Below, one piece after another: positions 1 to 16,815 of a stretch of DNA of 43,859 nt. The position numbers and the translations under genes were made by a program. The stretch comes from Cellulomonas sp. (GTDB lineage Bacteria > Actinomycetota > Actinomycetes > Actinomycetales > Cellulomonadaceae), in NCBI GenBank assembly GCA_022013895.1, contig JAKLPK010000172.1, positions 1 through 43,859 of the forward strand, in the 5' to 3' direction. The notes beneath the pieces are model-generated. The model ran no database searches. It was not told where the DNA came from and saw only the letters and a list, made by a program, of their open reading frames with translations. The first letter of the stretch is position 1. Each line of letters starts with the position of its first letter.

Positions 1-894
1 GGCGAGGGACGGGTCGACCAGATGGGTGCGGGGCCGGTCGCGCAGACGTGCGCGTGAACGAAGGTGGGTGGACCAGGCCGGTTGCACCTCAAGAATCATC
101 AGCCGGGTGAGCGCGTCTTGGTACTCGTGGGCGGACAGGCGCGAGAGGGAGACGTCCTCGCCGTCGGCCTCGGCGGCCAGCCGGGAGACGATGTGCTCCA
201 TCGCGGTGTTGCGGGCCAACGCCTGGATGAACCTCGTGACGCGGGCGGAGTCGCGGCGCGGGCCCGAGACGCGCGGCAGATCGACCTCAGCGATGGTTCG
301 CAGGTAGTCGCGGTTCGCGGCGCCGGCGTCGGCGGTCTGCATCGAGAGGTTCAGCGGCCAGCCGCCGCGGACGATCAGCTCGGCCATCCGCTGCACGGTC
401 ATCGGATCGGCGGGGGCCTGTGGGTGATCGCCCGCGAGCAGGGCTCGTAGCGACATGACGCCGCTGGAGTCGGCGGACTCGTGCAGGCTCATCGGGCGCA
501 TGGTGAGGCGCGCGAACCTGCCGGCACCGGAGTGGCGGCGGACGTCATCGTTCGGGACCGCCGAGCCGGTCAGGATGAACTGGCCCGGTGCGCCGCGCTG
601 GTCCACTTGTGCGCGGACGTGGTTCCAGACTCAGGTGCCGTCGAGCTGCCACTCGTCGACGAGCTGCGGGGGATCTCCGGCCAGGACCAACGTGGGGTCG
701 ATCTGAAGGGCAAGGAGAGACGCGTCATCGCGATCGAGGTAGACAGCGCTGCGAGCCTGCTGCTCGGCCGTCCGCGTCTTGCCGCACGCCTTGGGCCCCT
801 CGATCAGGACCGCACCCGCGGAGCCGAGCCGGGCCGTGAGGAGCCCGTCCACCACTCGGGGTAGGTAGTTCACGGGCATCTCCCTCGGCTGCAT
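1..894 (-). pseudogene. AAA+ ATPase with DUF4143 domain, broken by an in-frame stop and cut by the window edge
   Basis: The first 87 codons from ATG at 894 hold a Walker A motif (GPKACGKT, about residues 34-41) and a Walker B-like LVDEWQ, then a TGA at 631-633. Reading on in the same frame to base 1 gives no further stop and continues the family: VWNHVRAQVD, the sensor-like FILTGSA, GAGRFARLTMRPMSL and a DUF4143-type helical region ending at HLVDPSLA. The intact paralogue at 3619-4902 has the same order of motifs, so this is one gene with a single nonsense change and no frameshift. COG1373-type ATPases of this kind have no settled function. The 3' end lies outside the window. A four-copy 23-bp repeat array precedes the start. 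A short truncated ATPase may still be made. Confidence 0.85.
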
Positions 895-909
895 TCCGTA
901 CCAGTGACC

Positions 910-991
910 TTACACTGTGCAGGCTCCTGCATTTACAGTATGCAGATCCGAAGTGAGACACCGTGCAGGCATCGGAGTCGACAGCCTGCAG
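910..991 (-). repeat. Four direct repeats with 23-bp period upstream of the broken ATPase gene
   Basis: On the plus strand ACA-N3-TGCAG occurs at 912, 935, 958 and 981, exactly 23 bp apart each time; in the gene's sense direction it reads CTGCA-N3-TGT. The two copies nearest the gene match over 11 of 13 bases (910-922 and 933-945). The nearest copy runs into a plausible -10 box (TAAGGT in sense, plus-strand 907-912), so the array covers the core promoter and about 70 bp upstream. A 6-2-6 palindrome at 918-931 (TGCAGG/CCTGCA) lies between the first two copies. This is likely an operator array; the binding protein is unknown. Confidence 0.75.
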
Positions 992-1023
992 CCCGGTGGG
1001 CTCCTGTGCGACGAATCCGGGCC

Positions 1024-1614
1024 CTACGTGCGCGGCCTCCTGCTCACCGCGTGCATGAGCGGCAGGCACACGGCGTCGACGATCTCCTCGATCCGCGCAT
1101 CGCTCGGTTCGTCGGTGAGCAGCAGGTCGTGGCGGAACAGGATGACGGGCACGGAGGAGACCAACGGCGGGATGGGCACCGGGCCGAGCTCGCCGCGCTC
1201 GCGGGCGCGCTGGAGCACGGTGCGGGAGATCTCGTCGGCGAGCGCATCGGTCAGCTCGAGGAGCACGCTGCGGAGGTCGGCGTCCGCGTCGGCGACGATG
1301 CCCCGGAGGGCCTGCGCCCCGGCGGTCTGGAACCGGGTGCGCATGAGCTGGAGCAGTGCGATGAGATCGCCCCGCAGGTTCCCGGTGTCCGGAGCCGGGG
1401 TCACCGAGGCGAGCTGTGCGGTCAGCGCGTCCAGGACCAGGTGGGCGCGGGAGCGCCAGCGCCGGTAGAGCACCGGTTTGCTGGTGTGGGCCCGTCGTGC
1501 GACGCCGTCGTAGGTGACCCCGGCGTAGCCGTGGTCACGCAGCTCGTCCCGGACAGCACCGAGGATCTCCGAGCGCAGAGCATCGCCGCGTCGTCGTGTG
1601 ACCGGTTCCACCAT
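1024..1614 (-). CDS. TetR/AcrR family transcriptional repressor
   Basis: 196 aa. The N-terminal 60 residues are a TetR helix-turn-helix domain: a first helix around RSEILGAVRDELRDHGY, then YDGVARRAHTSKPVLYRRW, where TSKPVLYRRW is the recognition-helix signature. The rest is an all-helical ligand-binding domain resembling the C-terminal domain common in actinobacterial AcrR proteins. The ATG at 1614 follows a GGAGG at 1618-1622. The gene is divergent from the membrane protein at 1716, and the 101-bp gap holds a perfect 17-bp palindrome, so it very likely represses itself and that neighbour. The inducer cannot be read from the sequence. Confidence 0.92.
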   Translation of the reverse strand: MVEPVTRRRGDALRSEILGAVRDELRDHGYAGVTYDGVARRAHTSKPVLYRRWRSRAHLVLDALTAQLASVTPAPDTGNLRGDLIALLQLMRTRFQTAGAQALRGIVADADADLRSVLLELTDALADEISRTVLQRARERGELGPVPIPPLVSSVPVILFRHDLLLTDEPSDARIEEIVDAVCLPLMHAVSRRPRT

Positions 1615-1635
1615 GGCCCTCCGATTGAGTACTTG

Positions 1636-1689
1636 CCGTATCTTAACGGCCCGCGCTAGTCTCCGAGAGATACGGACCGTATCTTAACG
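1636..1689. promoter_or_regulatory. TetR operator region in the divergent promoter
   Basis: AGATACGG-A-CCGTATCT at 1668-1684 is a perfect 8-1-8 palindrome. The 13-mer CCGTATCTTAACG occurs at 1677-1689 and again at 1636-1648, so one full site and one extra half-site lie between the divergent TetR and membrane-protein genes. Position, symmetry and size fit a TetR dimer site. Which gene each site controls is inference. Confidence 0.85.
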
Positions 1690-1715
1690 ATTCTTGACCG
1701 CGGAGGAGTGACCCC

Positions 1716-2756
1716 ATGGTGACGGCACCCAGCCCCACCCGAGACGCACCCAGCCCCACCCGGAGCGCACCGTCGAGCTGGCCGCGCGTCGCGGTGATGA
1801 CCCTCGCGCTGGTCGGCGCGATCATGACTCTCCTCGTCGCGTTCGCCCTGCCCGGGATCGAGTCTGGTCTCCACGATGTCCCCGTGGCGGTCGTGGGACC
1901 CGCCCAGCAGACCGCCGCGCTCACCGAGCGGCTCGAGGCGGCCGCCCCCGGCGGGTTCGAGGTGCGGGTGCTCACGAGCGCCGAGCAGGCGCGTGAGCAG
2001 ATCCTCGACCGTGAGGTCTACGGGGCGCTCATCGTGGGCGACTCCGGGGTCACGCTCGAGGTGGCCTCCGCGGCCAGTCCCACCATGGCGACCGCGCTCA
2101 CCCAGGCGGTGACCTCGCTCGGCGAGGCGGCGTCGATCCCGGTGCAGGTCGAGGATGTGCGCCCGTTCCCGGCCGACGACCCGAAGGGCGTGGGACTGTC
2201 CACCGGGGCCGTCCCCCTCGCCCTGGGCGGGTGGATCGCCGCAGTGGGGATCATGGCCGGTGTGCGCGGCGCCCGGCAGCGGCTGCTCACCGGGGCGGGC
2301 TTCGCGGTCTTCGGCGGGCTCGGGTTGGTCGCGATCCTGCAGTACTGGTTCGGGACGATCGACGGCAGCTACTGGCTCACGTCGCTCGGCGCCATGCTTG
2401 GTGCGGGAGCCGCCTGCTTCGCGGTGCTCGGGCTCCAGCGGATGTTCGGGAAGGTGGGGCTCGGCCTCGCGGTCATCGCGCTGATCCTGCTGGGCAGCCC
2501 GCTGTCCGGTCTGACCAGCGCGCCCGAGCTGCTTCCTGCCCCGTGGGGAGCCATCGGCCAGTTCCTCCCGCCCGGCGCGACCGGAACCCTGCTGCGCAAC
2601 CTCGCGCTCTTCGACGGCGCCGCGACGACGGTGCCGATCCTCGTGCTGGCCGGATGGTTGCTCGCAGGGCTGGCGCTGTTCGGCGCTGGGACGCTGCGTG
2701 GACGCCGGCGGACCCCTGGACCGGCGACGGAGGAGAGCGCTGCCCCGACGGACTGA
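1716..2756 (+). CDS. Membrane protein, ABC-2 permease/YhgE-like, TetR-controlled
   Basis: 346 aa. A first membrane segment lies around residues 27-48, then an extracytoplasmic domain of about 110 residues that resembles the soluble part of YhgE/Pip and ABC-2-type permeases (VAVVGPAQQTAALTERL, VYGALIVGDSG). Five or so further hydrophobic segments follow from about residue 165 to 330. The tail is short, polar and acidic. The N-terminus holds a small repeat (APSPTR twice), encoded by a repeated CCCAGCCCCACCCG. The start is supported by GGAGGAG at 1701-1707. No ATPase gene is adjacent. Families like this are usually linked to export or envelope stress; the substrate is unknown. Pairing with a TetR gene fits an inducible efflux or envelope function. 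Confidence 0.7.
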   Translation: MVTAPSPTRDAPSPTRSAPSSWPRVAVMTLALVGAIMTLLVAFALPGIESGLHDVPVAVVGPAQQTAALTERLEAAAPGGFEVRVLTSAEQAREQILDREVYGALIVGDSGVTLEVASAASPTMATALTQAVTSLGEAASIPVQVEDVRPFPADDPKGVGLSTGAVPLALGGWIAAVGIMAGVRGARQRLLTGAGFAVFGGLGLVAILQYWFGTIDGSYWLTSLGAMLGAGAACFAVLGLQRMFGKVGLGLAVIALILLGSPLSGLTSAPELLPAPWGAIGQFLPPGATGTLLRNLALFDGAATTVPILVLAGWLLAGLALFGAGTLRGRRRTPGPATEESAAPTD

Positions 2757-2825
2757 CCGGAGCCGGCCGCGGGCCCGGTGAGGGCATGCGGTGTCTCGGG
2801 ACATCGGCGACGGTGCGCGTCTCGA

Positions 2826-2831
2826 TAGGGT
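2826..2831 (+). promoter_or_regulatory. -10 box of a likely leaderless promoter
   Basis: TAGGGT ends 6 nt before the ATG at 2838 and there is no Shine-Dalgarno sequence between. The same spacing recurs before several other genes in the window, as expected for actinobacterial leaderless transcripts. Confidence 0.6.
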
Positions 2832-2837
2832 CTCGCC

Positions 2838-3587
2838 ATGCGTGGCGCATTGACGGATCGGTCCGACGTCACGGTGTGGGGCGAATCCTCCGAACGGGCC
2901 TTTCTGTTCGTGCACGGCATGGGCGGCAGCAAGGCCGACGCCGAGATGTTCGCCCAGCGCGCGACCCGGCACGGATGGCAGACGGTGAGTGTCGATCTGC
3001 CGCCGGCACTCCTGCCGTGGGAGTGCGTCCCCTTCCTCCAGGACGCCGTCGCGATGATGCGCGAGCAGTGGCCGACGATCGGGCTGCATGCCACGAGCAT
3101 CGGTGCCTGGTTCAGCACGAGGGCGCTGAGCGGACAGCCGCTGGCCGGAGCGCTGCTGCAGTCGCCGGTGCTGGACATGGTCGGCATGATCGAGCAGATG
3201 ATGGCCTCGGCCGGTGTGACGCGCGACGAGCTGGAGTCCGCTGGAGAGATCTCTGCAGCAGAGGGCACCGTCCTGTCGTGGCGCTATCTCAGGTGGGCCG
3301 AGCAGCACCGGGTCGAGGCCTGGGACGCGCCGACGTCGATCATCGTCGGCGAGAACGACGAACTGATCCCGCGGATCTGCGTCGACGAGTTCGCACAGCG
3401 GTGGGGTGCCGAAGTGCGGGCCGTCCCCGGTGGCGCGCACTGGCTGCACCTGCCGCACGAGCTCGATGCCGTGGCGCGTTGGGAAGACGGCTCCCTGTCC
3501 CGCGAGGACGAGCTGGATGACGCGTTCTCGCAGGTCCCGGCGATCGGGGTCGCCGGCCCCAGAGCCGATGGCAGGGCGGCCACGTGA
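2838..3587 (+). CDS. Alpha/beta hydrolase
   Basis: 249 aa, no signal peptide. The fold is indicated by the strand-turn FLFVHGMGG near residue 24 (oxyanion-hole HGMGG), a nucleophile elbow HATSIGAW with serine in an unusual T-S-I-G context instead of G-x-S-x-G, an acid in IIVGENDELIP and the histidine in GGAHWLHLP. The C-terminal 35 residues are polar and probably disordered. The gene is transcribed from a leaderless promoter and converges on the DUF4143 gene. The small size and absence of a large lid suggest a carboxylesterase or serine aminopeptidase-like hydrolase; the substrate cannot be inferred. Confidence 0.8.
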   Translation: MRGALTDRSDVTVWGESSERAFLFVHGMGGSKADAEMFAQRATRHGWQTVSVDLPPALLPWECVPFLQDAVAMMREQWPTIGLHATSIGAWFSTRALSGQPLAGALLQSPVLDMVGMIEQMMASAGVTRDELESAGEISAAEGTVLSWRYLRWAEQHRVEAWDAPTSIIVGENDELIPRICVDEFAQRWGAEVRAVPGGAHWLHLPHELDAVARWEDGSLSREDELDDAFSQVPAIGVAGPRADGRAAT

Positions 3588-3594
3588 GCGGGAC

Positions 3595-3637
3595 GGCACT
3601 CGGGTCCCGTGCCCACGGTCACGGCCCGAGCAGTGCC
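3595..3637. terminator. Imperfect dyad between convergent genes
   Basis: GGCACTCGGG at 3595-3604 can pair with CCCGAGcaGTGCC at 3625-3637, leaving a small bulge and a 20-nt loop. It lies between the hydrolase stop and the end of the convergent ATPase gene, where a two-way terminator would be expected. There is no T tract, so this is only a suggestion. Confidence 0.3.
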
Positions 3638-4902
3638 AGGGGAATCACGGCGACGCCGTCCGGACGCCGGTACGCGTGCCGCCCGGTGTTCACCAGCACC
3701 ATGTCGGTGAGCTGATCGCCCATCCGGGCCTTCAGCCAGTGGAGGTGACGGACGTCGTCGGGATTCACGGTCGGCGAGACCTTGACCTCGAACGCGACGG
3801 TGGTGCGTTCGCCGCGGCCGGTCACGATGAAGTCGACCTCGTGGGCAGAGTTCTTGGTGCGCAGGTGGTGCACGTCCGCGTCGGTCGCCTGCGCGAAGAC
3901 CCTGAGGCTGAGGGCCACCAGTGACTCGAACAGGGCGCCGAGCAAGTGCCCGTCGCGGGGTATCGCTGGGCCGACCGGTCGACCGGTCAACAGGTCCTCC
4001 ACGCTCGCACCGAGCAGCGCCGCGGCGAGCGCCGGGTCGGCCAGGTGGTGCTTGGGGCCTTCGGTGAGCCGGTCGATCCGCACGCCGATGGGGTGCCATG
4101 CGGGCACGGGGTCGGAGATCCAGATGCTCTCGAGGGTGTCCCGGTACGGGATGGTGCTGGATCGCGGCGGCGGGTTGGAGTGCCCGGTCGCTGCCGCATC
4201 GCGGATCGTCTCGAACGTCGCGGTGGTCGACGTCGCCGCTGCGAACGCGCGCATCCAGCGGAGCAGGCCGGCGGGGTTCCGGACGTCCCTGCCCGCCTCG
4301 GGGAAGTCCCGGTCGACGATCCTGCGGATGTACCCGTCGAGCTGGATCGCCCGCGCGGCCGTGCTGAGGGACCGCATCCCGGGGAAGCCGCCACCGACGA
4401 TCTGCTCGGTGTAGTCCGCGAGCCCGTACCCGGAGTCGCCGTTGATCGTGCCGGTCCGGCCGCTCAGCAGATCCGCCAACGACACGGCGGGTATGACCTC
4501 GCCGCGTTCGGGGAGAGTGAGCGGGCGCATCCGGAGGCTGACGATCCGACCGGCCCCCGAGTGGGTCTGGGGGTTTCGCGGGCTGGCGGAGCCGGTGAGG
4601 ATGAAGCGTCCGGGCCGGGGGTCGTCGTCGACCGCCCTGCGGACGACGTCCCAGGACGGCGGCCAGTGCTGCCACTCGTCGATGAGGATCGGCTCCGGCG
4701 CCTCGGTCAGTCGGCTCGGATCGGCCTCGAAGAGGTCGATGGGGTCGGTGTCGAGTCGATGCACCGTGGCCGCACGCTGCTCCGCGGTGGCGGTCTTGCC
4801 GACCGCCTTCGGCCCGTCGATGGCGATGGCGAAGAGGTTGGCGACCAGGAGGTCGACCTGGTCGTCGACGATCCGTCGCCGGTAGCCCCGTGTGGTGCCC
4901 AC
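3619..4902 (-). CDS. AAA+ ATPase with DUF4143 domain (COG1373 type)
   Basis: 427 aa, GTG start. Walker A GPKAVGKT (about residues 29-36), Walker B ILIDEWQHW, sensor-type FILTGSA, then GAGRIVSLRMRPLTL. The middle is a helical DUF4143 region. The end holds a PD-(D/E)xK-like pattern, HEVDFIVTGRGERTTVAFEVKVS split as E-VDF and E-x-K, as in many COG1373 proteins. These ATPases are common in bacteria and archaea and their function is not established. The gene is a distant paralogue of the broken copy at 1-894. Its start lies 7 nt after a -10 box that is itself the last unit of a 23-bp repeat array, so a leaderless, array-controlled transcript is likely. It is divergent from the LytTR regulator gene. 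Confidence 0.9.
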   Translation of the reverse strand: MGTTRGYRRRIVDDQVDLLVANLFAIAIDGPKAVGKTATAEQRAATVHRLDTDPIDLFEADPSRLTEAPEPILIDEWQHWPPSWDVVRRAVDDDPRPGRFILTGSASPRNPQTHSGAGRIVSLRMRPLTLPERGEVIPAVSLADLLSGRTGTINGDSGYGLADYTEQIVGGGFPGMRSLSTAARAIQLDGYIRRIVDRDFPEAGRDVRNPAGLLRWMRAFAAATSTTATFETIRDAAATGHSNPPPRSSTIPYRDTLESIWISDPVPAWHPIGVRIDRLTEGPKHHLADPALAAALLGASVEDLLTGRPVGPAIPRDGHLLGALFESLVALSLRVFAQATDADVHHLRTKNSAHEVDFIVTGRGERTTVAFEVKVSPTVNPDDVRHLHWLKARMGDQLTDMVLVNTGRHAYRRPDGVAVIPLALLGP

Positions 4903-4905
4903 GCG

Positions 4906-4985
4906 GTCGAGGCTACAGCAGGACGTTATGCAACGCTACGGATCGACTCCATGCGACGCTACTTCAGGACACATTTGAACGCTAC
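4906..4985 (-). repeat. Four direct repeats with 23-bp period upstream of the intact ATPase gene
   Basis: On the plus strand AGGCTAC at 4910-4916 and ACGCTAC at 4933-4939, 4956-4962 and 4979-4985 are spaced exactly 23 bp apart. In the direction of the ATPase gene each unit begins GTAGCGT (GTAGCCT in the copy next to the gene). The copy next to the gene supplies its -10 box, and the next falls where a -35 box would lie. No fifth copy is seen on either side. Period, copy number and position match the array at 910-991, although the unit sequence is different. A role at the divergent LytTR regulator gene (start 5168) is the main alternative. Confidence 0.8.
4910..4915 (-). promoter_or_regulatory. 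-10 box of a likely leaderless promoter for the ATPase gene
   Basis: In sense the hexamer is TAGCCT and ends 7 nt before the GTG at 4902, with no Shine-Dalgarno sequence between. It coincides with the gene-proximal unit of the 23-bp array, so a protein bound to the array would probably block or steer RNA polymerase. Confidence 0.6.
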
Positions 4986-5167
4986 GCTTCGACGAAGACA
5001 GACCACAGGAACGGGCCATGACCGGCATCGGTCGGGTACCCCGGTCGGCCGGGAGCGACCAGTTCGCCCGGCTGCCGCCTGCGCCGCGTCAACGGCCGGT
5101 TCGGTGTGCGCCGACGACAAGGAATGATGGGCCCGTTCGGACCGATCGGCATGAGAGGCAGACGAAC

Positions 5168-5893
5168 GTGGTGCAGGTGGTCCGGCTGGGTGTGGTCGAC
5201 GACCAGCCCGCGAGCCGGGAGCTCGTCGTCGAGCACCTGGAACGCTACGGGCGCGAGCACGATGACGTGACCTTCGAGGTGCGGACCTACACCGACGGCG
5301 CCGAGCTCGTCGAACGGTACCGGTCGGACCTCGACCTCCTGCTCCTGGACGTGCAGATGCCGCAGATGGACGGACTCGAGGCGGCGCGGCGTGTGCGGGT
5401 GCTCGACGCGGACGTCGTCATCGTCTTCCTCACCAACATGGCGCAGTACGCGGTCAAGGGGTACGAGGTCGACGCGCTCGGCTACCTGGTCAAGCCCGTG
5501 CCGTACTTCGCATTCGCAGCCGAGCTCAAGCGGGCGGTGGACCGCGTCCGACGGACCCGCGGCGAGAGCCTGGTCCTGCCGGTGCCGGGCGGCGTGGCGC
5601 GGGTGGCGGTGGCGGACATCCTCTACGTGGAGTCGATCAAGCATCGGATCGTCGTGCACTCCTACCAGGGCGATCACGCTCTCACCGGCACGCTCAAGGC
5701 CTTCGAGGAGGCGCTCGACGGCAAAGGCTTCTTCCGGTCCAACTCCGGGTACCTCGTCAACCTGCGGCACGTCACGGCGGTGGGGCCGTCGTCCTGCACG
5801 CTCGCGGGGCGCGACGAGCTCCAGGTGAGCCGGCCGCGCCGCAAGGCGTTCCTTGCGGCGCTCACCGATCACGTGGGTGGGCGGCCGGTGTGA
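5168..5893 (+). CDS. LytTR-family response regulator
   Basis: 241 aa from GTG 5168. Receiver domain at residues 1-125: acidic pair VVDDQ near the start, phospho-acceptor Asp61 in LLLLDVQMPQMDG, switch threonine in VFLTNMAQ and lysine in YLVKPVPY. The LytTR DNA-binding domain fills residues 135-235 (LYVESIKHRIVVHS, FFRSNSGYLVNLRHV). A longer reading from 5018 is open but adds low-complexity residues before the receiver fold; GTG 5168 has GAGAGG about 9 nt upstream and fits the domain edge. The gene overlaps the sensor kinase by 4 nt. LytTR regulators bind paired direct repeats about 21-22 bp apart, and such a pair lies before the GH3 block. Confidence 0.9.
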   Translation: MVQVVRLGVVDDQPASRELVVEHLERYGREHDDVTFEVRTYTDGAELVERYRSDLDLLLLDVQMPQMDGLEAARRVRVLDADVVIVFLTNMAQYAVKGYEVDALGYLVKPVPYFAFAAELKRAVDRVRRTRGESLVLPVPGGVARVAVADILYVESIKHRIVVHSYQGDHALTGTLKAFEEALDGKGFFRSNSGYLVNLRHVTAVGPSSCTLAGRDELQVSRPRRKAFLAALTDHVGGRPV

Positions 5894-7206
5894 TCGGGGA
5901 CCTGCTCCCGGACATCCCCCGGGGGCTCACCGCGCTGGCCGAATGGGGCGCGTGCCTCGTCTACGTCCTCCTCGTCCCCCGGCGACTGCCGCTGCGCCGG
6001 CTGGTGCCCGTGGTGGTGGTGGGGTTCGCCGTGCTGTGGGGTGTGCAGACCGTGGCGGGCACGCTGCCGCGCGCGCTGTGGACCCTCGGGATGCTGCTCG
6101 CCGTCGCGACGATGTTCGCGTTCGTCCACCTGTGTGCGGCCGGGCCCGCGCGCGTCGCCGGGTACCTCGTCGCGCGCGCATTCGTGCTGGCCGAGCTGGT
6201 CGCATCGCTGCACTGGCAGCTCGACGTGTACTTCTTCCTCGAGGCCGACGAGCCCGTCGTCCTGCGGGGCGCGATGCTGGTCGTGATCTACGGCGGCGGC
6301 CTCGTCGCGGCGTGGGCGCTCGAACGGCGGCACTTCCCGCCCGATGTCGCGGTGGACGTCGACGCACGTGCCCTCGCGTCCGCGGTGGCCATCGCGGCCA
6401 TCACGTTCCTCGTCTCCAACCTCAGCTTCATCAGCACCCGCACCCCGTTCTCGGGACGCCTCGGCCTCGAGGTGTTCTACATCCGCACGCTCGTGGACCT
6501 CGCGGGGTTCGTCGCGCTGTTCGCGCAGCACGGCCAGCGGCTCGAGCTGCGGCGGGCGCGTGAGGTGGAGGCGATGGACCGGCTCATGCGCAGCCAGCAC
6601 GATCAGTACCTCGCGTCCCGGCGCAACGTCGACGAGGTGAACCGCAAGTACCACGACCTCAAGCACTACGTGCAGGCCATCCGCGCCGAGGAGAGCGCGA
6701 GTGCGCGCGCCGAGTACCTCGACCGGCTCGAGGAGTCGATCCGCGGCTACGAGTCACAGGTCCAGACGGGCAACCGCGTGCTCGACGTGCTCGTCTCGTC
6801 GCGCCTGGCGGAGTGCGCCACGCAGGGCATCACCCTCACCTGCGTGGCCGACGGCGCGGCGCTCGCCTTCGTCGACGTCATGGACACCTCGGCGCTCGTC
6901 GGGAACGCGCTGGACAACGCGGTCGAGGCGACCCGCGAGGTCGCCGACCCGGACCGGCGGTTCATCCGTCTGGCGGTCTATGCGCAGGGCGGTCTCGTGA
7001 TGTTCCGCGTCGACAACTACGTGAGCGACGTGGACCTCGAGTTCCACGACGGGCTGCCGCGCACGACGAAGGGTGACACCACCTCGCACGGCTACGGCCT
7101 CACGACGATGCGCCAGGTGGCCGAGCGGTACGGCGGCTCGCTCACGGTGCAGGTCGAGGACGGGTGGTTCACCGTGCGGGTGCTGCTGCCGTCGCCTCAG
7201 ACGTAG
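5890..7206 (+). CDS. Sensor histidine kinase, GHKL type (AgrC-like)
   Basis: 438 aa, GTG start inside the GTGA overlap with the regulator gene, so translation is probably coupled. Residues 1-220 contain about six hydrophobic segments forming a membrane sensor. A linker helix follows, then the H-box YHDLKHY with His255 as the likely phospho-acceptor, an N-box NALDNAVEA near residues 339-347 and a glycine-rich ATP lid (TSHGYGLTTMRQVAERYGG). This HPK10-type kinase typically pairs with LytTR regulators and often senses peptides or membrane state. No AgrB/AgrD-like peptide genes are visible, so the signal is unknown. Confidence 0.9.
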   Translation: MIGDLLPDIPRGLTALAEWGACLVYVLLVPRRLPLRRLVPVVVVGFAVLWGVQTVAGTLPRALWTLGMLLAVATMFAFVHLCAAGPARVAGYLVARAFVLAELVASLHWQLDVYFFLEADEPVVLRGAMLVVIYGGGLVAAWALERRHFPPDVAVDVDARALASAVAIAAITFLVSNLSFISTRTPFSGRLGLEVFYIRTLVDLAGFVALFAQHGQRLELRRAREVEAMDRLMRSQHDQYLASRRNVDEVNRKYHDLKHYVQAIRAEESASARAEYLDRLEESIRGYESQVQTGNRVLDVLVSSRLAECATQGITLTCVADGAALAFVDVMDTSALVGNALDNAVEATREVADPDRRFIRLAVYAQGGLVMFRVDNYVSDVDLEFHDGLPRTTKGDTTSHGYGLTTMRQVAERYGGSLTVQVEDGWFTVRVLLPSPQT

Positions 7207-7273
7207 GCCCGCGGGCGCCGCGTTCTCGCGCGCCCGGACACCGGAGCACCCCCATCCGAGACCCGACCGTGAT

Positions 7274-7284
7274 GTCACTGTGAC
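7274..7284. promoter_or_regulatory. Small perfect palindrome upstream of the GH3 block
   Basis: GTCAC-T-GTGAC is a perfect 5-1-5 dyad, and GTGA at 7269-7272 adds a further half-match. It lies about 20 bp upstream of the paired 12-bp repeats. Its size would fit a dimeric regulator, but a chance palindrome cannot be excluded. Confidence 0.35.
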
Positions 7285-7294
7285 CTTCGCGACC

Positions 7295-7327
7295 GATCGT
7301 GCGCCGAGATCGACAGTTCGTGCGCCG
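7295..7327 (+). repeat. Pair of 12-bp direct repeats, 21-bp period, candidate LytTR site
   Basis: GATCGTGCGCCG at 7295-7306 and GTTCGTGCGCCG at 7316-7327 differ at one base and are 21 bp apart, the spacing typical of LytTR dimer sites. A possible -10 box (TAACTT, 7355-7360) lies 28 bp downstream with a poor -35 region, as expected of an activator-dependent promoter. The first downstream gene is the lipoprotein GH3 at 7498. The promoter call is weaker than the repeat. Confidence 0.6.
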
Positions 7328-7497
7328 CCGCCCTGTCGCCCCCCGGCCTCCGCGTAACTTCGCTCCCGCGGCGCAGGACCACGACGTCCGGCCGCTCGGA
7401 TCGCAGCGTACGCATCGCCGCGCACGCACGACCGGCCGCTCCGACGACGGGGCAACGCCGACGAGGCGTGACAGGGCCAGGAGGACGAGGAAGGTCG

Positions 7498-9894
7498 ATG
7501 AGGACAACCAGAGGGCTCAAGGGCAAGAAGGCGTTCGTCAGGAGCGCGGTCGCCATGGCGGCTGTGGGCGTGCTCACGCTCACAGCGGCGTGCACGACCG
7601 GGACTTCGGACGACGACGCGACCGACGCCAACAAGTTCACCACACGCGACGTCACCGACGGCACGACGACATTCGTGCTCGTCGAGAACCCCGACGGCGG
7701 GCAGACGCTCTCCTACGCCAAGGACGGACCGATGGAGCTCCTCGAGGTCGAGGAGGACGGCAACACCCTGGCGTTCAAGGACATGAACGCCAACGGCGAG
7801 CTGGACCCGTACGAGGACTGGCGGCTCGAGGCCAGCGACCGAGCGGCCGACCTCGCGGACGACCTCACCGCTGAGCAGATCTCCGGGCTCATGCTGTTCA
7901 GCTCGCACGAGGGGTCACCCAGCGACGGCCTGACGGACACGCAGAAGACCTATCTGTCGGAGTCGAACCTCCGCGCGGTCCTGAACGCCGGCTCGTCCGA
8001 CGTCGAGGACAACGTCACGTGGGTCAACGAGATGCAGGCCTACGTCGAGACCCTCACGACCTCCGACGCGCCCTACATCCCGGCCAACTTCTCCTCGGAC
8101 CCGCGCAATACGGCCACCGCCGCGGACGCCGGCACGGTCGGCAGCATCTCGCTGTGGCCGAGCAACCTCGGCATCGCCGCCACGTTCTCGACCGAGACGG
8201 CGGAGCTGTACGGCCGCTCCATCAGCGAGGAGTACCGCGCACTCGGTCTGACCAACGCGCTGAGCCCGCAGATCGACCTGGCCACCGACCCCCGGTGGCT
8301 GCGCGACTCCGGCACCCTCGGGGAGGACCCGGACCTCGCGTCGGAGCTCGCGGACGCGTTGGTCACGGGATACCAGAGCACCTACGCCGAGGACGGCACC
8401 AACCTGGGCTGGGGCCTGGACTCGGTGCCCACGATGATCAAGCACGCCCCCGGTGACGGCTCGGGCGAGGGTGGGCGCGAGTCGCACACCGCGGCCGGTA
8501 AGTACGCCATCGCCGGCGACAGCATCGGGGACTCGCTGGAGGTCTTCGCTGCGGCGTCGGACTCGATCGGCATGATGACCGACTACTCGATCCTGCTCGA
8601 CACCGAGGGCAACTCCCTCGGTGGAGGTGACAGCGTCGGGACCGCATACGACCCCGAGACCATGGCGCAGATCCGCGAGCAGTTCGACGGTGTCATCGTG
8701 ACCGACTGGGGCGTCTTGACCGGGGCCACGGACGAAGGCGCGACGATGGGCATGGCGTGGGGCGCCGAGGACCTGACTCCCGCCGAGCGCTACTACCAGG
8801 TGCTGCTCAACGGCACCGACATGTTCGGTGGCGTGAACGACTCGACGTACATCCTCGAGGCCTACAACCTGTGGACCGAGCACTACGAGGCTGGCGAGGT
8901 CGACGTGGATGCGGACACCCGCTGGCAGCAGTCGGGGACCCGCATCCTCACCGGGTACTTCGCGCCGGGGCTGTTCGACAGCCCGTTCGTCGACCTCGAC
9001 GCCTCGGTGGAGACCGTGGGCGCGGAGGCCACGGTCGAGGCCGGGTACCAGGCTCAGCTGGACTCGGTCGTCATGACCAAGAACGACGGCGTGGTCTCCG
9101 AGGCCACCCTCGAGGACTGGGCCGACAAGACGGTCTACATCCCGCACACCTACGACACCGGCCACGCCAGTTCGTTCGGTGAGGGGGAGTACACCGAGGG
9201 GCCGACACTGACGGTCGAGGCGGCGGAGGAGTTCTTCGCGAAGGTCGTCACCGACACGGTCGAGTACGACGCCGACGGCAAGGTCACGAGCATCACCGCT
9301 CCTGACCTGTCCGACGTCGACATCGCACTGGTGGGGATGCGCAGCCCGTCGGCGGGTGCGGTCTTCAGCAACTCCGGCCTCGACCAGACGACGGGGACGT
9401 ACTACCCGCTCTCGCTGCAGTACCGGCCTTACACGGCCGACGGTGAGTACGTCCGCAAGGTCTCGATCGGCGGTGACGTCCTCGCGGACGGCACGCAGGA
9501 GAACCGGTCCTACTTCGGTGCGACCGGCACCGTCTCGAACGAGGCCGACCTGGACGCCTTCGAGCGGACGGTCTCCGCTGTCGACGCCTCGGGCAAGGAC
9601 ATCCCTGTGGTCGCGCTCATCAAGGCGTCCAACCCCGTGGTGCCGACCGAGTTCGAGGCCGACGCCGACGCGGTGCTGGTCGGTTTCGGGGTGAGCGACA
9701 AGGCTCTCATCGAGGTCGCACTCGGTGTGTCCGAAGCGCAGGGTCGTCTCCCGATCGGGTTCCCCGCGAGCATGGACGCCGTCGAGGCGCAGGACGAGGG
9801 GGTCGCCGGGGACACCGAGACCTACGTGGACTCCGCCGGCAACGACTGGAAGTTCGGCTTCGGCCTGAACTTCTCGGGCCCGATCGCCGACTGA
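7498..9894 (+). CDS. Glycoside hydrolase family 3 lipoprotein
   Basis: 798 aa from ATG 7498, preceded by AGGAAGG; the longer frame to 7468 would misplace the signal peptide. The N-terminus is a lipoprotein signal (positive start, hydrophobic stretch, lipobox LTAAC, Cys about residue 32). Residues 95-107 (DMNANGELDPYED) form an EF-hand-like calcium loop as in many extracellular GH3s. The TIM barrel follows, with MIKHAPGDGSGEGGRESH and the nucleophile motif VTDWG (Asp403). A GH3 C-terminal alpha/beta domain runs to the end (VDIALVGMRSPSAG, GRLPIGFP). The enzyme should be anchored outside the membrane and release sugars from the non-reducing end of a glycan. Sugar and linkage specificity cannot be read. 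Confidence 0.92.
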   Translation: MRTTRGLKGKKAFVRSAVAMAAVGVLTLTAACTTGTSDDDATDANKFTTRDVTDGTTTFVLVENPDGGQTLSYAKDGPMELLEVEEDGNTLAFKDMNANGELDPYEDWRLEASDRAADLADDLTAEQISGLMLFSSHEGSPSDGLTDTQKTYLSESNLRAVLNAGSSDVEDNVTWVNEMQAYVETLTTSDAPYIPANFSSDPRNTATAADAGTVGSISLWPSNLGIAATFSTETAELYGRSISEEYRALGLTNALSPQIDLATDPRWLRDSGTLGEDPDLASELADALVTGYQSTYAEDGTNLGWGLDSVPTMIKHAPGDGSGEGGRESHTAAGKYAIAGDSIGDSLEVFAAASDSIGMMTDYSILLDTEGNSLGGGDSVGTAYDPETMAQIREQFDGVIVTDWGVLTGATDEGATMGMAWGAEDLTPAERYYQVLLNGTDMFGGVNDSTYILEAYNLWTEHYEAGEVDVDADTRWQQSGTRILTGYFAPGLFDSPFVDLDASVETVGAEATVEAGYQAQLDSVVMTKNDGVVSEATLEDWADKTVYIPHTYDTGHASSFGEGEYTEGPTLTVEAAEEFFAKVVTDTVEYDADGKVTSITAPDLSDVDIALVGMRSPSAGAVFSNSGLDQTTGTYYPLSLQYRPYTADGEYVRKVSIGGDVLADGTQENRSYFGATGTVSNEADLDAFERTVSAVDASGKDIPVVALIKASNPVVPTEFEADADAVLVGFGVSDKALIEVALGVSEAQGRLPIGFPASMDAVEAQDEGVAGDTETYVDSAGNDWKFGFGLNFSGPIAD

Positions 9895-13500: not shown

Positions 13501-13599
13501 ACCCGTCGGGTGCTGCGTCACCGCCGGACCGGCGCCGGGACCCCGGGCGTCGGGACCGGCGGCCCCGGCCCGGCCGCCGGCGGGCCGAGCACCGACTAG
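10591..13599 (+). CDS. Membrane-anchored GH3 glycosidase with reversed domain order
   Basis: 1002 aa from TTG 10591, chosen because GAGGAGGA at 10578-10585 sits at the right distance; an ATG at 10587 would stop after two codons. A membrane segment lies at about residues 20-46 and a second at about 948-970 with a basic tail. Between them the usual GH3 order is inverted: the C-domain comes first (about 85-400, GGMVLAKNDAAALPL, YPFGYGLSYTDF), then a fibronectin-III-like domain (to about 515), a linker, then the TIM barrel (about 620-930) with GRNFEYYSEDPFLSG, MLKHFALNEQE and nucleophile Asp874 in AITDFN. C-domain-first GH3s are known (Ruminococcus albus, Butyrivibrio fibrisolvens). The catalytic part is probably outside the cell, held by both ends. 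Confidence 0.9.
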   Translation: MNARAKSADRARKSMSNRKFLWIWVPVLSTVAVLTVVVNVALVVAGGWVGSQFGNGTYTFTNSAESAGWDTDYYVSDYANIDEVDEAAKALVEEIAAGGMVLAKNDAAALPLTSGAKVTMLGRAAADPIFGGSGSGSVDTNTAVTARGGLENAGFVVNDAVYGAIEAYTAENDRGYIEMDNPDASSYYIGEMPVSGYEAQQASFADYSDAAIVYIGRPGGEGGDLTRDMTGWDDNAVEGQHQLELNQDEKDLIALAKASFDTVVVVVNASTTIEMGLLQDDPDIDAIVLAGSPGATGFNALGGILAGEVNPSGRTTDLWAADFTADPTYVNFGGFQYDGLEVSYPVSAVESAASNATVTDEATFVNYAEGIYVGYRYYETAAAENFIDYDDAVVYPFGYGLSYTDFSHEIVGTEAGDVDGTIAVSVEVTNTGDVAGKDVVELYYTAPYTDGGIEKSEVVLGGFDKTDLLEPGASQTVTIELAVEDMASYDYLGEQAYVLEAGDYQLSVRTDSHTVAPGTEPITYTVDSDVVYSGENHRSTDEAAVTNQFDDVSSQFSTEAEDGKILSMSRADFAGTFPTAPTGDQLVASETVEAGFAAWDDDAAADAFEGEMPTTGADSDLSLIDLRGLAKDDPKWDELLDSLTVDEMTDMLLNGAYQTTAIGSIGKPATVEPDGPAGFSSFINSSINGVAYPSEYLIAQTWDVDLGTAMGEMLGNEALQKGINGWYAPAANLHRSPFAGRNFEYYSEDPFLSGSMLTAVANGAAEKGVYAMLKHFALNEQETNRVNNGVATFATEQAIRELYLKPFEMAVKNITMDVPYISDEDGTIATATVGATGVMSSFNRIGATWTGGSQALMTNVLRDEWGFQGFAITDFNLYAYMNPNQAISAGTDLTLTFQPSKSFSDTSSAKAVSDIREATGNVLFTVANSNAMDGLAPGATVSYTPPTWVYIQIGASAAIGLLVLLGAFLVTRRVLRHRRTGAGTPGVGTGGPGPAAGGPSTD

Positions 13600-13620
13600 C
13601 GGATGAGCTCCGCACCTCCC

Positions 13621-13655
13621 GTCGGGCCGGCGGCGCCCACCGTCGCCGGCCCGAC
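13621..13655 (+). terminator. Strong GC hairpin between the second and third GH3 genes
   Basis: GTCGGGCCGGCG (13621-13632) and CGCCGGCCCGAC (13644-13655) make a perfect 12-bp stem with an 11-nt loop, 21 nt after the stop codon. No T tract. This is the third such structure in this gene block. Confidence 0.7.
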
Positions 13656-13727
13656 CCGAGAACCCTGCCCACGACAGCGCACGGCTGCGCCACCACGAAC
13701 GGCCGCGCTCAGACCCCCGAGGAAGTC

Positions 13728-16145
13728 ATGATCGAGAACCTGTCCCTCGAGGAGAAGGCCGCCCTGCTGTCCGGCAAGACGGTCTGGGACTCCCGCGACG
13801 TGCCCCGCCTGGGCATCCGTTCCCTCGTCCTCACGGACGGCCCGCACGGCGTGCGGCGCCAGACGGGATCGGCGGACCACCTGGGCATCGCGGCGTCCTT
13901 GCCGGCCACCTGCTTCCCCACCGCGGCGGCCGTGGCCAACACGTGGGACATCGAGCTTGTGCAGGAGATCGGTGCGGCGCTCGGCGCGGAGGCGACGGCG
14001 CAGGGCGTCGACGTGCTGCTCGGACCGGGTCTGAACATCAAGCGCAGCCCGTTGTGCGGGCGCAACTTCGAGTACCTCTCGGAGGACCCGCACCTGGCCG
14101 GCCACCTCGCCGCGGCGTACGTGCGTGGCATCCAGGGCGCCGGCCCGGCCGCGTGCCCGAAGCACTTCGCGGTGAACAGCCAGGAGCTGCGCCGCATGAC
14201 GAACGACTCGGTGGTCGACGAGCGCACGCTCCGCGAGATCTACCTCACGGCGTTCGAGATCGTGGTCCGCGAGGGCCGTCCGGCCACCGTCATGTCGTCG
14301 TACAACAAGGTCAACGGCACGTACGCGCACGAGAACGCGTTCCTGCTGCAGCAGGTGCTGCGCGACGAGTGGGGCTTCGACGGCCCCGTCGTCTCGGACT
14401 GGGGTGGCGGCGACGACCCGGTGGCTGCGGTCCGTGCGGGCGGCACCCTCGAGATGCCGTCGCCCGGGATGGACTCGGCGTTGCGGATCCTGGAGGCCGT
14501 GCGCCGTGGTGAGCTCACCGAGGCCGAGCTCGACGTTCGCGTGGCGGAGATGCTCGCGCTCGTCGAGCGGTCCGGGCCCGCGAGGGTCGGGACGTACGAC
14601 GATGCCGCGCACCACGCACTGGCCCGCCGCGCGGCGGCGGCGAGCGTCGTGCTGCTCAAGAACGACGACGCCCTGCTGCCGCTCGCGCCGGCGACGCGCA
14701 TCGCGATCGTGGGCGACTTCGCGTTCGTGCCGCGCTACCAGGGTGCCGGTTCGTCGCAGGTCAACCCGACCCGTGTGACCGACCTCGTCACGGCACTCGG
14801 GACCTCGACGCTCGATGTCGTGGCGACCGCCCGCGGCTTCCGCCGTGACGGCGGCGCGGACGAGGCCCTGCTCACCGAGGCGGTCGCCGCCGCCCGCGGT
14901 GCGGACGTCGTCGTCGCGCACCTGGGCCTCGACGAGCTGAGCGAGATCGAGGGCCGCGACCGGACCGACCTGCGCCTGCCGGCCGCGCAGCTCGAGCTGC
15001 TGGCCGCGCTGCACGACACCGGCGTGCCGGTGGTCGTCGTGCTGGCCGCCGGGTCCGTGGTCGAGATGCCGTGGCTCGAGGCGGCCACCGCCGTGGTGCA
15101 CGGGTTCCTGGGAGGCCAGGCCGGTGCCGAGGGGATGGCCGACGTGCTCGTCGGGCAGGTGAATCCGGCCGGGCGCCTCGCGGAGAGCTACCCCGTCCGG
15201 CTGGCGGACGTCCCGAACGTCGCGTACTACCCGGGGGACGGCCCGACGGCGGAGTACCGCGAGGGCCTGTACATCGGCTACCGGTACTACGCCTCGGCCG
15301 ACGTCCCGGTGACGTTCCCGTTCGGGTTCGGCTTGTCCTACACGACGTTCGCGTACGACGAGCTCGAGGTGACTCCCGACGGCGTGACGTTCACGCTCGA
15401 GAACACCGGGACCGTGGCCGGCGCCGAGGTCGCCCAGCTGTACGTGGGCCGTGCCGCGCACGACGACGGTGTGCACCGTCCGGTGCGCGAGCTCAAGGGC
15501 TTCGCACGCGTGAGTCTCGAGCCCGGCGAGCGTCGCCGTGTGCGCGTCGCGTTCGACGAGCGCACCTTCCGCCACTTCGACACCCGCACGGGTCGCTGGG
15601 AGGTGGAGGGCGGGACGTGGACCGTCGCGGTCGCGGCGAACGCGACCGACCTGCGGCTCGTCGGCACTCTCGACGTGGTCGGCACCGTGGCGGTCGGGTC
15701 CGATGCAGCGACGCTGCCGCACTACGCCGCCGCGGACGTCCGGGCTGTGCGGGACGACGAGTTCGAGGCCCTCCTGGGTCGGCCGATCCCGCCCGCGACC
15801 CGCCCCGTGGGGCCGCTCGACGCCAACGACCCGCTCGCCGCGCTCGGGCATGCCGCGAACCCGCTCGGCCGGCTCGCGTACCGCGTGCTCGTCGCGCTCA
15901 TGGCCCGCGCCGACCGCAAGGGCACGCCGGACCTCAACCTGCTGTTCCTCTACGGCATGCCGTTCCGGGCCATCGCCAAGATGACCAACGGCGTGGTGAG
16001 CACGCAGATGGTCGATGCGCTCGTGCTCGCGGTCAACGGCCACGGCTTCCGTGGCCTGGGCAGGTTCGTCGCCGCCTACGTCCGCAACGTCCGCGCCACC
16101 CGTGCCCTGCGCCGCGAGCTCGCGTCGCCGGGCGTTCCCCACTGA
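13728..16145 (+). CDS. Glycoside hydrolase family 3, beta-glucosidase-like, cytoplasmic
   Basis: 805 aa, no signal peptide or membrane segment. Conventional GH3 order: TIM barrel at about 1-300 (LTDGPHGVRRQ, KRSPLCGRNFEYLSEDP, PKHFAVNSQE, nucleophile Asp224 in VVSDWGG), alpha/beta C-domain at about 300-530 with a candidate acid/base glutamate in LDELSEIEGRDR, and a fibronectin-III-like domain at about 545-640. A C-terminal extension of about 160 residues (FLYGMPFRAIAKMTNGVV) is found in a subset of GH3s. ATG 13728 follows GAGGAAG. It should act inside the cell on oligosaccharides brought in or made by the neighbouring products. Beta-glucosidase is the nearest guess; other beta-glycosidase activities are possible. 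Confidence 0.9.
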   Translation: MIENLSLEEKAALLSGKTVWDSRDVPRLGIRSLVLTDGPHGVRRQTGSADHLGIAASLPATCFPTAAAVANTWDIELVQEIGAALGAEATAQGVDVLLGPGLNIKRSPLCGRNFEYLSEDPHLAGHLAAAYVRGIQGAGPAACPKHFAVNSQELRRMTNDSVVDERTLREIYLTAFEIVVREGRPATVMSSYNKVNGTYAHENAFLLQQVLRDEWGFDGPVVSDWGGGDDPVAAVRAGGTLEMPSPGMDSALRILEAVRRGELTEAELDVRVAEMLALVERSGPARVGTYDDAAHHALARRAAAASVVLLKNDDALLPLAPATRIAIVGDFAFVPRYQGAGSSQVNPTRVTDLVTALGTSTLDVVATARGFRRDGGADEALLTEAVAAARGADVVVAHLGLDELSEIEGRDRTDLRLPAAQLELLAALHDTGVPVVVVLAAGSVVEMPWLEAATAVVHGFLGGQAGAEGMADVLVGQVNPAGRLAESYPVRLADVPNVAYYPGDGPTAEYREGLYIGYRYYASADVPVTFPFGFGLSYTTFAYDELEVTPDGVTFTLENTGTVAGAEVAQLYVGRAAHDDGVHRPVRELKGFARVSLEPGERRRVRVAFDERTFRHFDTRTGRWEVEGGTWTVAVAANATDLRLVGTLDVVGTVAVGSDAATLPHYAAADVRAVRDDEFEALLGRPIPPATRPVGPLDANDPLAALGHAANPLGRLAYRVLVALMARADRKGTPDLNLLFLYGMPFRAIAKMTNGVVSTQMVDALVLAVNGHGFRGLGRFVAAYVRNVRATRALRRELASPGVPH

Positions 16146-16160
16146 AAGAGAGCTCCACCG

Positions 16161-16814
16161 ATGCTGCGACGCGCCCGCGAGGCATGGGCCTCCTTTGCCT
16201 CCCGACGTCCCGCGACGGCCCAGTTCGTCGTCTTCTTCCTGCTCAGCAACGGCGTGACCGTGCTCCAGCTGGCGCTCATGCCGGCGTTCAAGTGGGTCTT
16301 CGGCATGACCTCGCTCGTCGACACCACGTTCCAGGCGTTCCCCGTCGGATCCAACATGGACGGCTCGCCGTTCTACATCTTCGACTACGCCGCGGGTCCG
16401 CTGCCCGACGGCGGCGGTGGCCTCGCCTACTTCCTGGCGGTGCAGATCACGCTGGCGATCGCCCAGGTCATCAACTTCTTTGCCCAGCGCAACGTCACTT
16501 TCAAGTCGAACTCGAGCGTGGGCCGGGCAGCGTTCTGGTACGTCATCGCCTACATCGTCATCACCTTCGCCGCCGGTGCGCTGCAGGGGCTCTACAAGGC
16601 CCCGATCTACACGCTGCTCATGGACACCTGGGGCTGGGGCAGCACGGGCGAGACGGTCGCGGACTTCGTCACGATGATCATCAACGCCGCGCTGTCGTTC
16701 TGGGTGTTCTTCCCGATCTTCAGGGTGATCTTCAAACGGGTCCCGGAGGACGAGGCCACGGCCACCGCGCCGACGACGCCCTCGACCGCCGCGCCGGAGC
16801 GCACCGGAGACTGA
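16161..16814 (+). CDS. GtrA-like membrane protein
   Basis: 217 aa with four hydrophobic segments at about residues 20-45, 88-110, 125-150 and 170-195, arranged as in GtrA, with the family-like pattern FLLSNGVTVLQLAL and INFFAQRNVTFKS. A loop of about 45 residues between the first and second segments is longer than usual. GtrA proteins are thought to move lipid-linked sugars across the membrane, usually beside a glycosyltransferase. The gene starts 15 nt after the third GH3 with GAAAGAGAG as ribosome site, and the GT2 gene follows after one base, so the two are translationally linked. Confidence 0.8.
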   Translation: MLRRAREAWASFASRRPATAQFVVFFLLSNGVTVLQLALMPAFKWVFGMTSLVDTTFQAFPVGSNMDGSPFYIFDYAAGPLPDGGGGLAYFLAVQITLAIAQVINFFAQRNVTFKSNSSVGRAAFWYVIAYIVITFAAGALQGLYKAPIYTLLMDTWGWGSTGETVADFVTMIINAALSFWVFFPIFRVIFKRVPEDEATATAPTTPSTAAPERTGD

Positions 16815-16815
16815 C

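Follow-up and report, generated by a model that had tools for sequence, protein, structure and literature searches.

The window analysed in this study is the whole of contig JAKLPK010000172.1 (43,859 nucleotides), one entire contig of the 3.76-Mb assembly of a Cellulomonas sp. It carries two paralogous DUF4143 genes, each preceded by direct repeats that recur every 23 bp. Gene 2 lies on the minus strand (3619..4902), begins with a GTG codon and encodes a protein of 427 aa with an AAA_14 domain, a winged helix and a DUF4143 domain of the PD-(D/E)xK type, as assigned by Pfam, PADLOC and an AF2 model. Its putative operator array (span 4910..4993, minus strand) is made up, when read in the family-wide frame, of four cores, GTC-N5-GTAGC[GC]T, with a period of 23 at 4979-4993, 4956-4970, 4933-4947 and 4910-4924. 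TAGCCT, the probable -10 box of a leaderless promoter, lies within the last repeat, 7 nt ahead of the GTG (4910..4915, minus strand). Gene 1 (1..879, minus strand) is a partial paralogue that is truncated by the contig start and interrupted by an in-frame TGA at 631-633; it is either a pseudogene or holds a sequence error. Four 23-bp units, CTGCA..STGT, form its array (969-991, 946-968, 923-945 and 900-922; span 900..991, minus strand); on the plus strand the unit starts are 912, 935, 958 and 981.

The two arrays were proposed by an earlier model reading made without database searches (the sequence-only reading), which described four units at 23-bp spacing before both paralogues. Both exist, with lag-23 scores of 38/69 and 33/69 matches over four units for gene 2 and gene 1, respectively. 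The gene 2 array has the top lag-23 score in the window, and its score was reached by 0/20,000 mononucleotide shuffles of the local 230 bp. The gene 1 array ranks fifth, after three further places that score 34-35 at lag 23 and are none of them known arrays. Since 30/20,000 local shuffles also reached its score, this array is weak if taken alone. The unit sequences of the paralogues had been described as unrelated. This was not wholly so, as both can be fitted to a degenerate skeleton of the family, approximately CKGCAAAYTGTAGMGTAGA with a spacer of 4-5 nt. Two further DUF4143 copies occur in the same genome: one (L001) has its own 23-bp array, GGATCTGCGGG, with three clear units, and the other (L003) has an internal deletion and no detected array. 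A genome-wide search for a tandem of two gene 2 cores gave three matches with 0-1 mismatch, at the gene's own array; elsewhere in the genome there were three two-core sites with 2 mismatches, which is the chance level (27 for the reversed pattern).

The COG1373 label was that of the sequence-only reading, and membership was tested here through Pfam. The gene 2 protein matched DUF4143 (E 1.5e-21, 77.3 bits against a cut-off of 28.1) and AAA_14 (E 9e-12, 45.6 bits against a cut-off of 27), and PADLOC matched it over residues 7-425 to PDC-S01 (E 6.7e-66). The AF2 model has a pLDDT of 86.7. The Walker A motif GPKAVGKT occupies residues 30-37 (4792..4815, minus strand). The helix of residues 247-259 (4126..4164, minus strand), the likely recognition helix of the winged helix from covariation and the model, begins with R247 and is the second helix of the motif, after helix 230-238. 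In the DUF4143 domain, the hairpin residues K350 and N351 (3850..3855, minus strand) lie in the turn following strand 343-349, just ahead of E355 and D357. Together with E372 and K374, these last two are the predicted active-site residues of the PD-(D/E)xK domain (3781..3840, minus strand), from conservation (at least 90% in A6) and fold match. When DUF4143 was folded alone (pLDDT 84.1), most of the 50 structural match rows were PD-(D/E)xK nucleases. The best structural matches of the whole model were archaeal proteins (2qen and 2fna), followed by switches of the NLR/CED-4 type (Z about 12-13, rmsd about 5), over residues 2 to about 320; in a profile search against PDB sequences, most matches were to generic P-loop ATPases. 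The G and K of Walker A are kept in 173/173 array-bearing homologues, and the Walker A and B residues with the E-D-E-K set in 171-173 of the 173. Because these residues are conserved, the proteins look like working ATPases and, by prediction, nucleases.

Arrays with a 23-bp period are common before related genes. The criterion for an array was z of at least 4.5 across 3-4 units, assuming a match rate of 0.28. The 298 DUF4143 genes scored were listed matches chosen for retrieval, a non-random set enriched in relatives of the window gene. The best upstream period was 23 bp in 183 of them, 22 bp in 20 and some other length in 18, and 77 had none. By origin, 23 bp and 22 bp were best in 159 and 15 of the 218 genes from the window's family, in 17 and 2 of the 31 from plasmids, phages, viral contigs and other loci, and in 7 and 3 of the 49 from the phylum sample. 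In an earlier set of family genes with HMM-anchored starts, 23 bp was the best period in 102/153 and 22 bp in 14. In 173 genes, the array had 3 units in 75 cases, 4 in 94, 5 in 3 and 6 in 1.

The sequence-only reading had called for an autocorrelation peak at 23 bp upstream of COG1373 genes, and such a peak was found. Upstream of 116 family genes, autocorrelation was 0.423 at lag 23 and 0.370 at lag 46, compared with 0.25-0.28 at lags 18-22 and 24-29 and with 0.279 at lag 23 in the coding DNA of the same genes. No array reached z of at least 5 in the coding DNA of 153 genes at any period from 15 to 40 (0/153). Control gene starts had no such excess. Only 2 of 357 passed at 23 bp, both in the unmasked gene 2 region of the window (L336), and from the locus and the equal z we infer that they are the gene 2 array itself. 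At other periods, 34 control starts passed at 21 bp, 15 at 33, 11 at 24 and 1 at 22.

Presence of the genes is patchy. Genomes with a DUF4143 match numbered 28 of 81 in the genus, 95 of 200 in the family and 113 of 296 in the phylum sample, and positive genomes in the genus list hold from 1 to 17 copies. A pattern of three unit cores, searched in 220 family genomes, matched 18 times, at 14 loci spread over 14 genomes. All 14 loci lie directly upstream of a DUF4143 gene, and the reversed pattern gave 0 matches. The 23-bp architecture also occurs on plasmids of Chlorobiota, Bacillota, Bacteroidota and other Actinomycetota, as well as on faecal phage and viral contigs; a gene on an Actinomyces oris plasmid (L296) scored z 4.0, under the threshold. 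On plasmid pPAES01 of Prosthecochloris aestuarii (L295, Chlorobiota), a homologue 56.7% identical to the window protein is preceded by a closely matching unit of the actinobacterial type, GCGAAACGGTAGCGTA, which points to a joint transfer of gene and array between phyla. A homologue 86% identical (L301) was seen in a metagenome-assembled genome labelled Proteobacteria and reflects either mis-binning or recent transfer.

The repeat geometry tends to track the subfamily. Many genes of the GARQVGKS type have a 22-bp period (loci with other periods include L158, L149, L275, L313, L294 and L271), and the five alphaproteobacterial plasmid genes examined were all best at 22 bp, two of them over the threshold (L308 and L313). 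Genes of the KPLI..GARQVGKTWL type have a period of 32-33 bp, mostly with two units. This class is less secure than that of 22-23 bp, because control starts often pass at multiples of three. Most of the genes sampled from the general subfamily, whose P-loop is GPRQSGKT, had no detected array. The idea that the array is a feature of all DUF4143 genes was rejected; the 30 best matches of the phylum belong mainly to another subfamily, which lacks arrays. Within several subfamilies, arrays are real and general. Inspection by eye of genes from other classes without a 23-bp array (L061, L064, L068, L078, L080 and L086) showed short inverted repeats near the start codon, e.g. AACCAT..ATGGTT, which are perhaps a simpler operator. 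Four viral contigs carry the three-unit core, and no DUF4143 gene was found by HMM in the retrieved viral stretches that have it. Two viral stretches (L356:21-71 and L358:11720-11770) share the same perfect 23-bp tandem, GCGACATCTGTGGGTAGCGTGGG, near the end of the stretch; it fits the family skeleton, no DUF4143 gene accompanies it, and it is possibly a decoy array or an assembly-end repeat.

The units change together with the protein that they precede. Unit similarity was 0.75 for protein pairs more than 80% identical, 0.33-0.39 at 50-60% and 0.25-0.27 below 45%, and that of shuffled columns was 0.255. Covariation was analysed in 173 genes (23-bp arrays only, proteins of at least 380 aa) with the units in one register. 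The register alignment was weighted by overall protein identity and not by single columns, so that a residual bias is possible. Every protein column was scored against the 23 unit positions by mutual information with average-product correction. Pairs are written here as alignment column-unit position, and columns 244, 245, 340 and 341 correspond to R247, S248, K350 and N351 of the window protein. The window gene belongs to a clade of 87 proteins, in which the top six of 8,694 pairs were 340-14, 244-19, 245-0, 245-1, 341-14 and 341-13; the top score there was 0.301, and the highest value reached in 60 permutations was 0.123. The top four pairs in all 173 were 340-14, 244-19, 245-0 and 341-14. 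When shuffling was confined to clusters of relatives, at three cluster cuts, the observed value was reached in 0/100 shuffles for eight of nine target pairs and in 0-1/100 for the ninth (248-21). Thus the co-variation of unit and protein that the sequence-only reading had proposed is present, and the strongest residue-base pairs of the window gene's clade lie at positions likely to read DNA.

R247 and S248 covary with unit positions 19, 0, 1 and 22, I251 weakly with 21, and the hairpin of the DUF4143 domain with 13-14. The proposal that the PD-(D/E)xK segment reads the repeats is half supported, by the covariation of the hairpin; it left out the recognition helix of the winged helix, which covaries with positions 19, 22, 0 and 1. 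The residue preferences look chemically sensible: R or K at column 340 goes with C at position 14 in 66/74 cases and H with G in 11/13, and at column 244 K goes with G at position 19 in 21/32 and R with T in 63/92. Among 81 disjoint sister pairs, 244-19 ranked 2, 340-14 ranked 18 and 245-22 ranked 33 of 7,889, so these contrasts support the K350 position and not that of N351. In prediction of held-out bases across clades, 244-19 alone clearly predicts its base. The proposed reader sites thus have good support in the large clade and when all the data are combined, yet without a portable code. Together with the excess of periodicity, the covariation supports the earlier suggestion of self-specific operator arrays that co-evolve with their own ATPase, and recognition by each protein of its own array appears strongly supported.

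The position of the arrays relative to the promoter was examined in 152 family genes, with start codons picked by script near the HMM start and not from annotation. TAnnnT occurs at -12/-13 of the start codon in 94/152 (75 and 19, respectively) and at -35/-36, one unit upstream, in 27; each other offset from -40 to -6 has 0-5. Agreement with the repeat frame was assessed in 95 boxes located from -14 to -12, one box beyond the 94, and 62 of these start at unit position 21/22, in register with the repeats. A box in the repeat frame is as expected of a leaderless promoter that overlaps the last unit. By this placement of TAnnnT the operator overlaps the inferred promoter of its own gene in the 94 genes, so control of the promoter would be its natural role. 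Overlap with the -10 box favours repression in the actinobacterial genes.

Taken together, these results suggest that every DUF4143 gene in the group has an operator of its own, in most cases 3-4 direct repeats at a spacing of 23 bp, which would end on or just upstream of the gene's promoter. The product, an ATPase of the AAA/STAND-like kind with a winged helix and a PD-(D/E)xK domain, may read each repeat with two elements: one half-site would be contacted by the recognition helix and the other by the hairpin in the nuclease domain. A row of several protomers along the array would then mask the -10 region and keep the gene repressed. Such autorepression could keep a potentially harmful nuclease scarce until something relieves it. 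We regard this explanation as a whole, a private operator read through two domains by its own ATPase-nuclease, as probable, and binding of the protein to its own promoter with repression of itself as the most likely role of the array. We infer that the protein binds directly, that it forms an oligomer along the array, that it represses and does not activate, and that the nuclease has an effector role, probably in defense.

Several results weigh against this explanation. Elsewhere in the phylum, 38/49 sampled DUF4143 genes lack an array of 22-24 bp. The sister-pair contrasts place an unrelated pair, 378-11, at rank 1, have only 2 of their top 15 pairs at reader sites (244-19 and 244-20), put 245-0 at rank 126 and do not support 245-1, either 341 pair or 248-21. 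Replication of the covariation failed in a second clade of 49 proteins, where no pair exceeded the largest permuted value (maximum 0.209 against 0.219). Of the 8,740 pairs in that clade, 245-0 ranked 2, 341-14 ranked 66, 340-14 ranked 297 and 244-19 ranked 915, and the remaining targets fell at 4,626-8,494. In held-out prediction, 340-14 gave no gain in accuracy (0.58-0.59 against 0.60), 245-0 gained in accuracy (0.63-0.65 against 0.53) and not in log-likelihood, and other columns outranked the reader columns. A portable recognition code was rejected, as it mostly fails across clades. The units of paralogues from the same genome were no less similar than those of genes from different genomes (152 genes, 75 genomes). 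The within-genome orthogonality expected of mutually exclusive addresses was thus not found: a deficit appeared solely in a weak and tiny class (4 pairs, 0.068), and at 50-55% identity the paralogues were even more similar in their units, with 0.382 against 0.332 over 24 pairs. Finally, in some low-GC homologues (L305, L318 and L320) the array, judged by eye, lies just upstream of a -35/-10 pair. In these three loci activation would be as plausible as repression.

This last arrangement suits a different role, in which the array is a platform for activation or assembly and ATP-bound protomers upstream of -35 switch on their own gene by positive feedback. STAND activators of the MalT/AfsR type switch on genes with direct repeats. 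The model of the gene 2 protein resembles STAND/NLR proteins, and in the three low-GC loci the array ends, by eye, where the -35 begins. A passage of PMC4406477 also reports that TT_P0211, an AAA_14 + DUF4143 gene, is 6.6-fold up in plasmid-carrying wild-type Thermus thermophilus HB27, with no such change observed when Argonaute is absent. However, the -10-like box stands in the repeat register in 62/95, a position that suits occlusion, and the promoter of L318 is near-consensus by eye and should need no activator. We consider positive feedback of this kind possible and rather unlikely. Slightly less likely still is that gene and array form a selfish single-gene element, in which the array is an address like an iteron or a homing site and regulation is secondary. 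The patchy presence of the genes in 28/81 genomes of the genus, with up to 17 copies in one, their carriage on plasmids of several phyla, the lack of a recurrent partner in the 17 plasmid loci with gene tables examined and the conserved nuclease residues would all fit such an element. Against it, the array sits on the promoter. Insertion boundaries were sought at one flank only; the best match of that flank in the genus is 73% identical, too distant for an empty site of gene 2 to be examined.

Two simpler accounts leave the protein out. The repeats might be merely multiplied promoter motifs, -10 boxes set 23 bp apart, which is one step from -35 to -10, with no link to the protein that follows; this would fit the 27 cases in which TAnnnT recurs at -35/-36, a full unit ahead of -12/-13. 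Yet many units have no TAnnnT, the control gene starts have no 23-bp repeats, a closely matching unit precedes the homologue on the Chlorobiota plasmid, and the unit bases covary with residues of the recognition helix and the hairpin. This account is already disfavored and in our view very improbable. A role of the repeats in RNA, as a structure of the 5' leader or as CRISPR-like guides, is brought to mind by regular short repeats beside a nuclease gene. The same covariation with likely DNA-reading residues speaks against it, and the -10-like box 12-13 nt before the start codon (94/152) would put the transcript start at the start codon and the array upstream of the transcript. We give it the least credence of all.

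Autorepression through a private operator may also be part of something larger. It is conceivable, though we would not expect it, that each copy of what is among the most abundant candidate immunity genes is a self-addressed switch, an NLR-like ATPase with an intact nuclease, parked as an ordered oligomer on its private promoter array. Every unit would be read by two fast-changing residue sets, one of them on the nuclease domain, and the array would silence the gene and act as a safety catch as well. If foreign DNA, decoy sites or a change in DNA state or in copy number ended the parked state, synthesis and nuclease would both be released. If true, single-gene modules re-coded at such speed would represent a novel type of immunity or of selfish element. 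More immediately, a private DNA target of known sequence for many PDC-S01 copies turns their function into a bench question, and it is now possible to name the ligand, the half-sites and the probable reader residues. The 173 matched protein-DNA pairs are a natural set for the study of how recognition is re-coded. The findings also suggest that a PD-(D/E)xK domain may have been reused as a sequence reader.

The surroundings of the genes vary. Gene 2 is flanked on one side by TetR, ABC-2 and a weak match to a hydrolase, and on the other by a LytTR regulator and a kinase. The neighbors of L313 (Roseivivax plasmid) are annotated as a restriction endonuclease and QatA, and a neighbor of L296 (Actinomyces oris plasmid) as cas3u, which is consistent with defense surroundings for some copies. 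Apart from these genes, an open frame of 1,086 aa in the window (13599-16856, minus strand) had zero Pfam matches at 0.001 and lies opposite another long open frame.

Rv2008c is, we presume, a relative of these proteins. The closest known category is PDC-S01, a candidate anti-phage family that the gene 2 protein matches over its whole length. It is described as an ATPase domain fused to the PD-(D/E)xK superfamily and as the fourth most common defense across prokaryotes, with 29,494 bacterial and 9,986 archaeal systems, and experimental validation is still pending for most PDCs (passages of PMC12988326). In rumen genomes it is the most frequent individual locus (a passage of PMC13356809). The passages that describe PDC-S01 do not mention a private operator array or self-recognition, and a literature search, with subscription papers and preprints outside its scope, found no description of such arrays.

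In fold, the nearest relatives of the whole model are the archaeal AAA+ ATPases PAB2304 (2qen) and SSO1545 (2fna), with Z of 15.3 and 14.8 and rmsd of 4.4 and 4.2 over 254 and 247 residues; the alignment stops at model residues 297-298 and leaves the PD-(D/E)xK domain uncovered. STAND/NLR proteins (RPP1, CED-4 and Avs5) are alike in the nucleotide-binding domain and winged-helix region and in fold only; these matches span about 200-259 residues at 8-13% identity, with Z about 10-13.4 and rmsd about 5. Direct repeats at promoters are also the binding sites of MalT and of AfsR-type regulators. Unlike in these regulators, the winged helix and the nuclease domain both appear to read DNA here, the target in the searches made is the promoter of the gene itself, and a C-terminal repeat sensor domain was not found. 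Because its C-terminal part is PD-(D/E)xK, we liken the protein to a STAND switch in its working and do not class it as one.

Toxin-antitoxin operators and the iterons of plasmid rep genes are also self-specific repeats, spaced by about two helical turns and located just upstream of the gene of their reader. The arrays described here differ in that they precede a single gene whose putative reader is an ATPase-nuclease, with no antitoxin partner or replicon shown. An adjacent partner gene of the toxin-antitoxin kind was not found in the window or in the 17 plasmid loci examined, among which the neighbors differ. Finally, the DUF4143 domain alone matches PD-(D/E)xK nucleases such as McrC (128 residues, 3.9 A) and Card1 (142 residues, 4.0 A), both at Z 8.6, with Can2 and restriction enzymes lower. 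The predicted nuclease shares with them the E-D-E-K residues. It differs from them in the hairpin beside its active site, which covaries with promoter bases of the very gene that encodes it.

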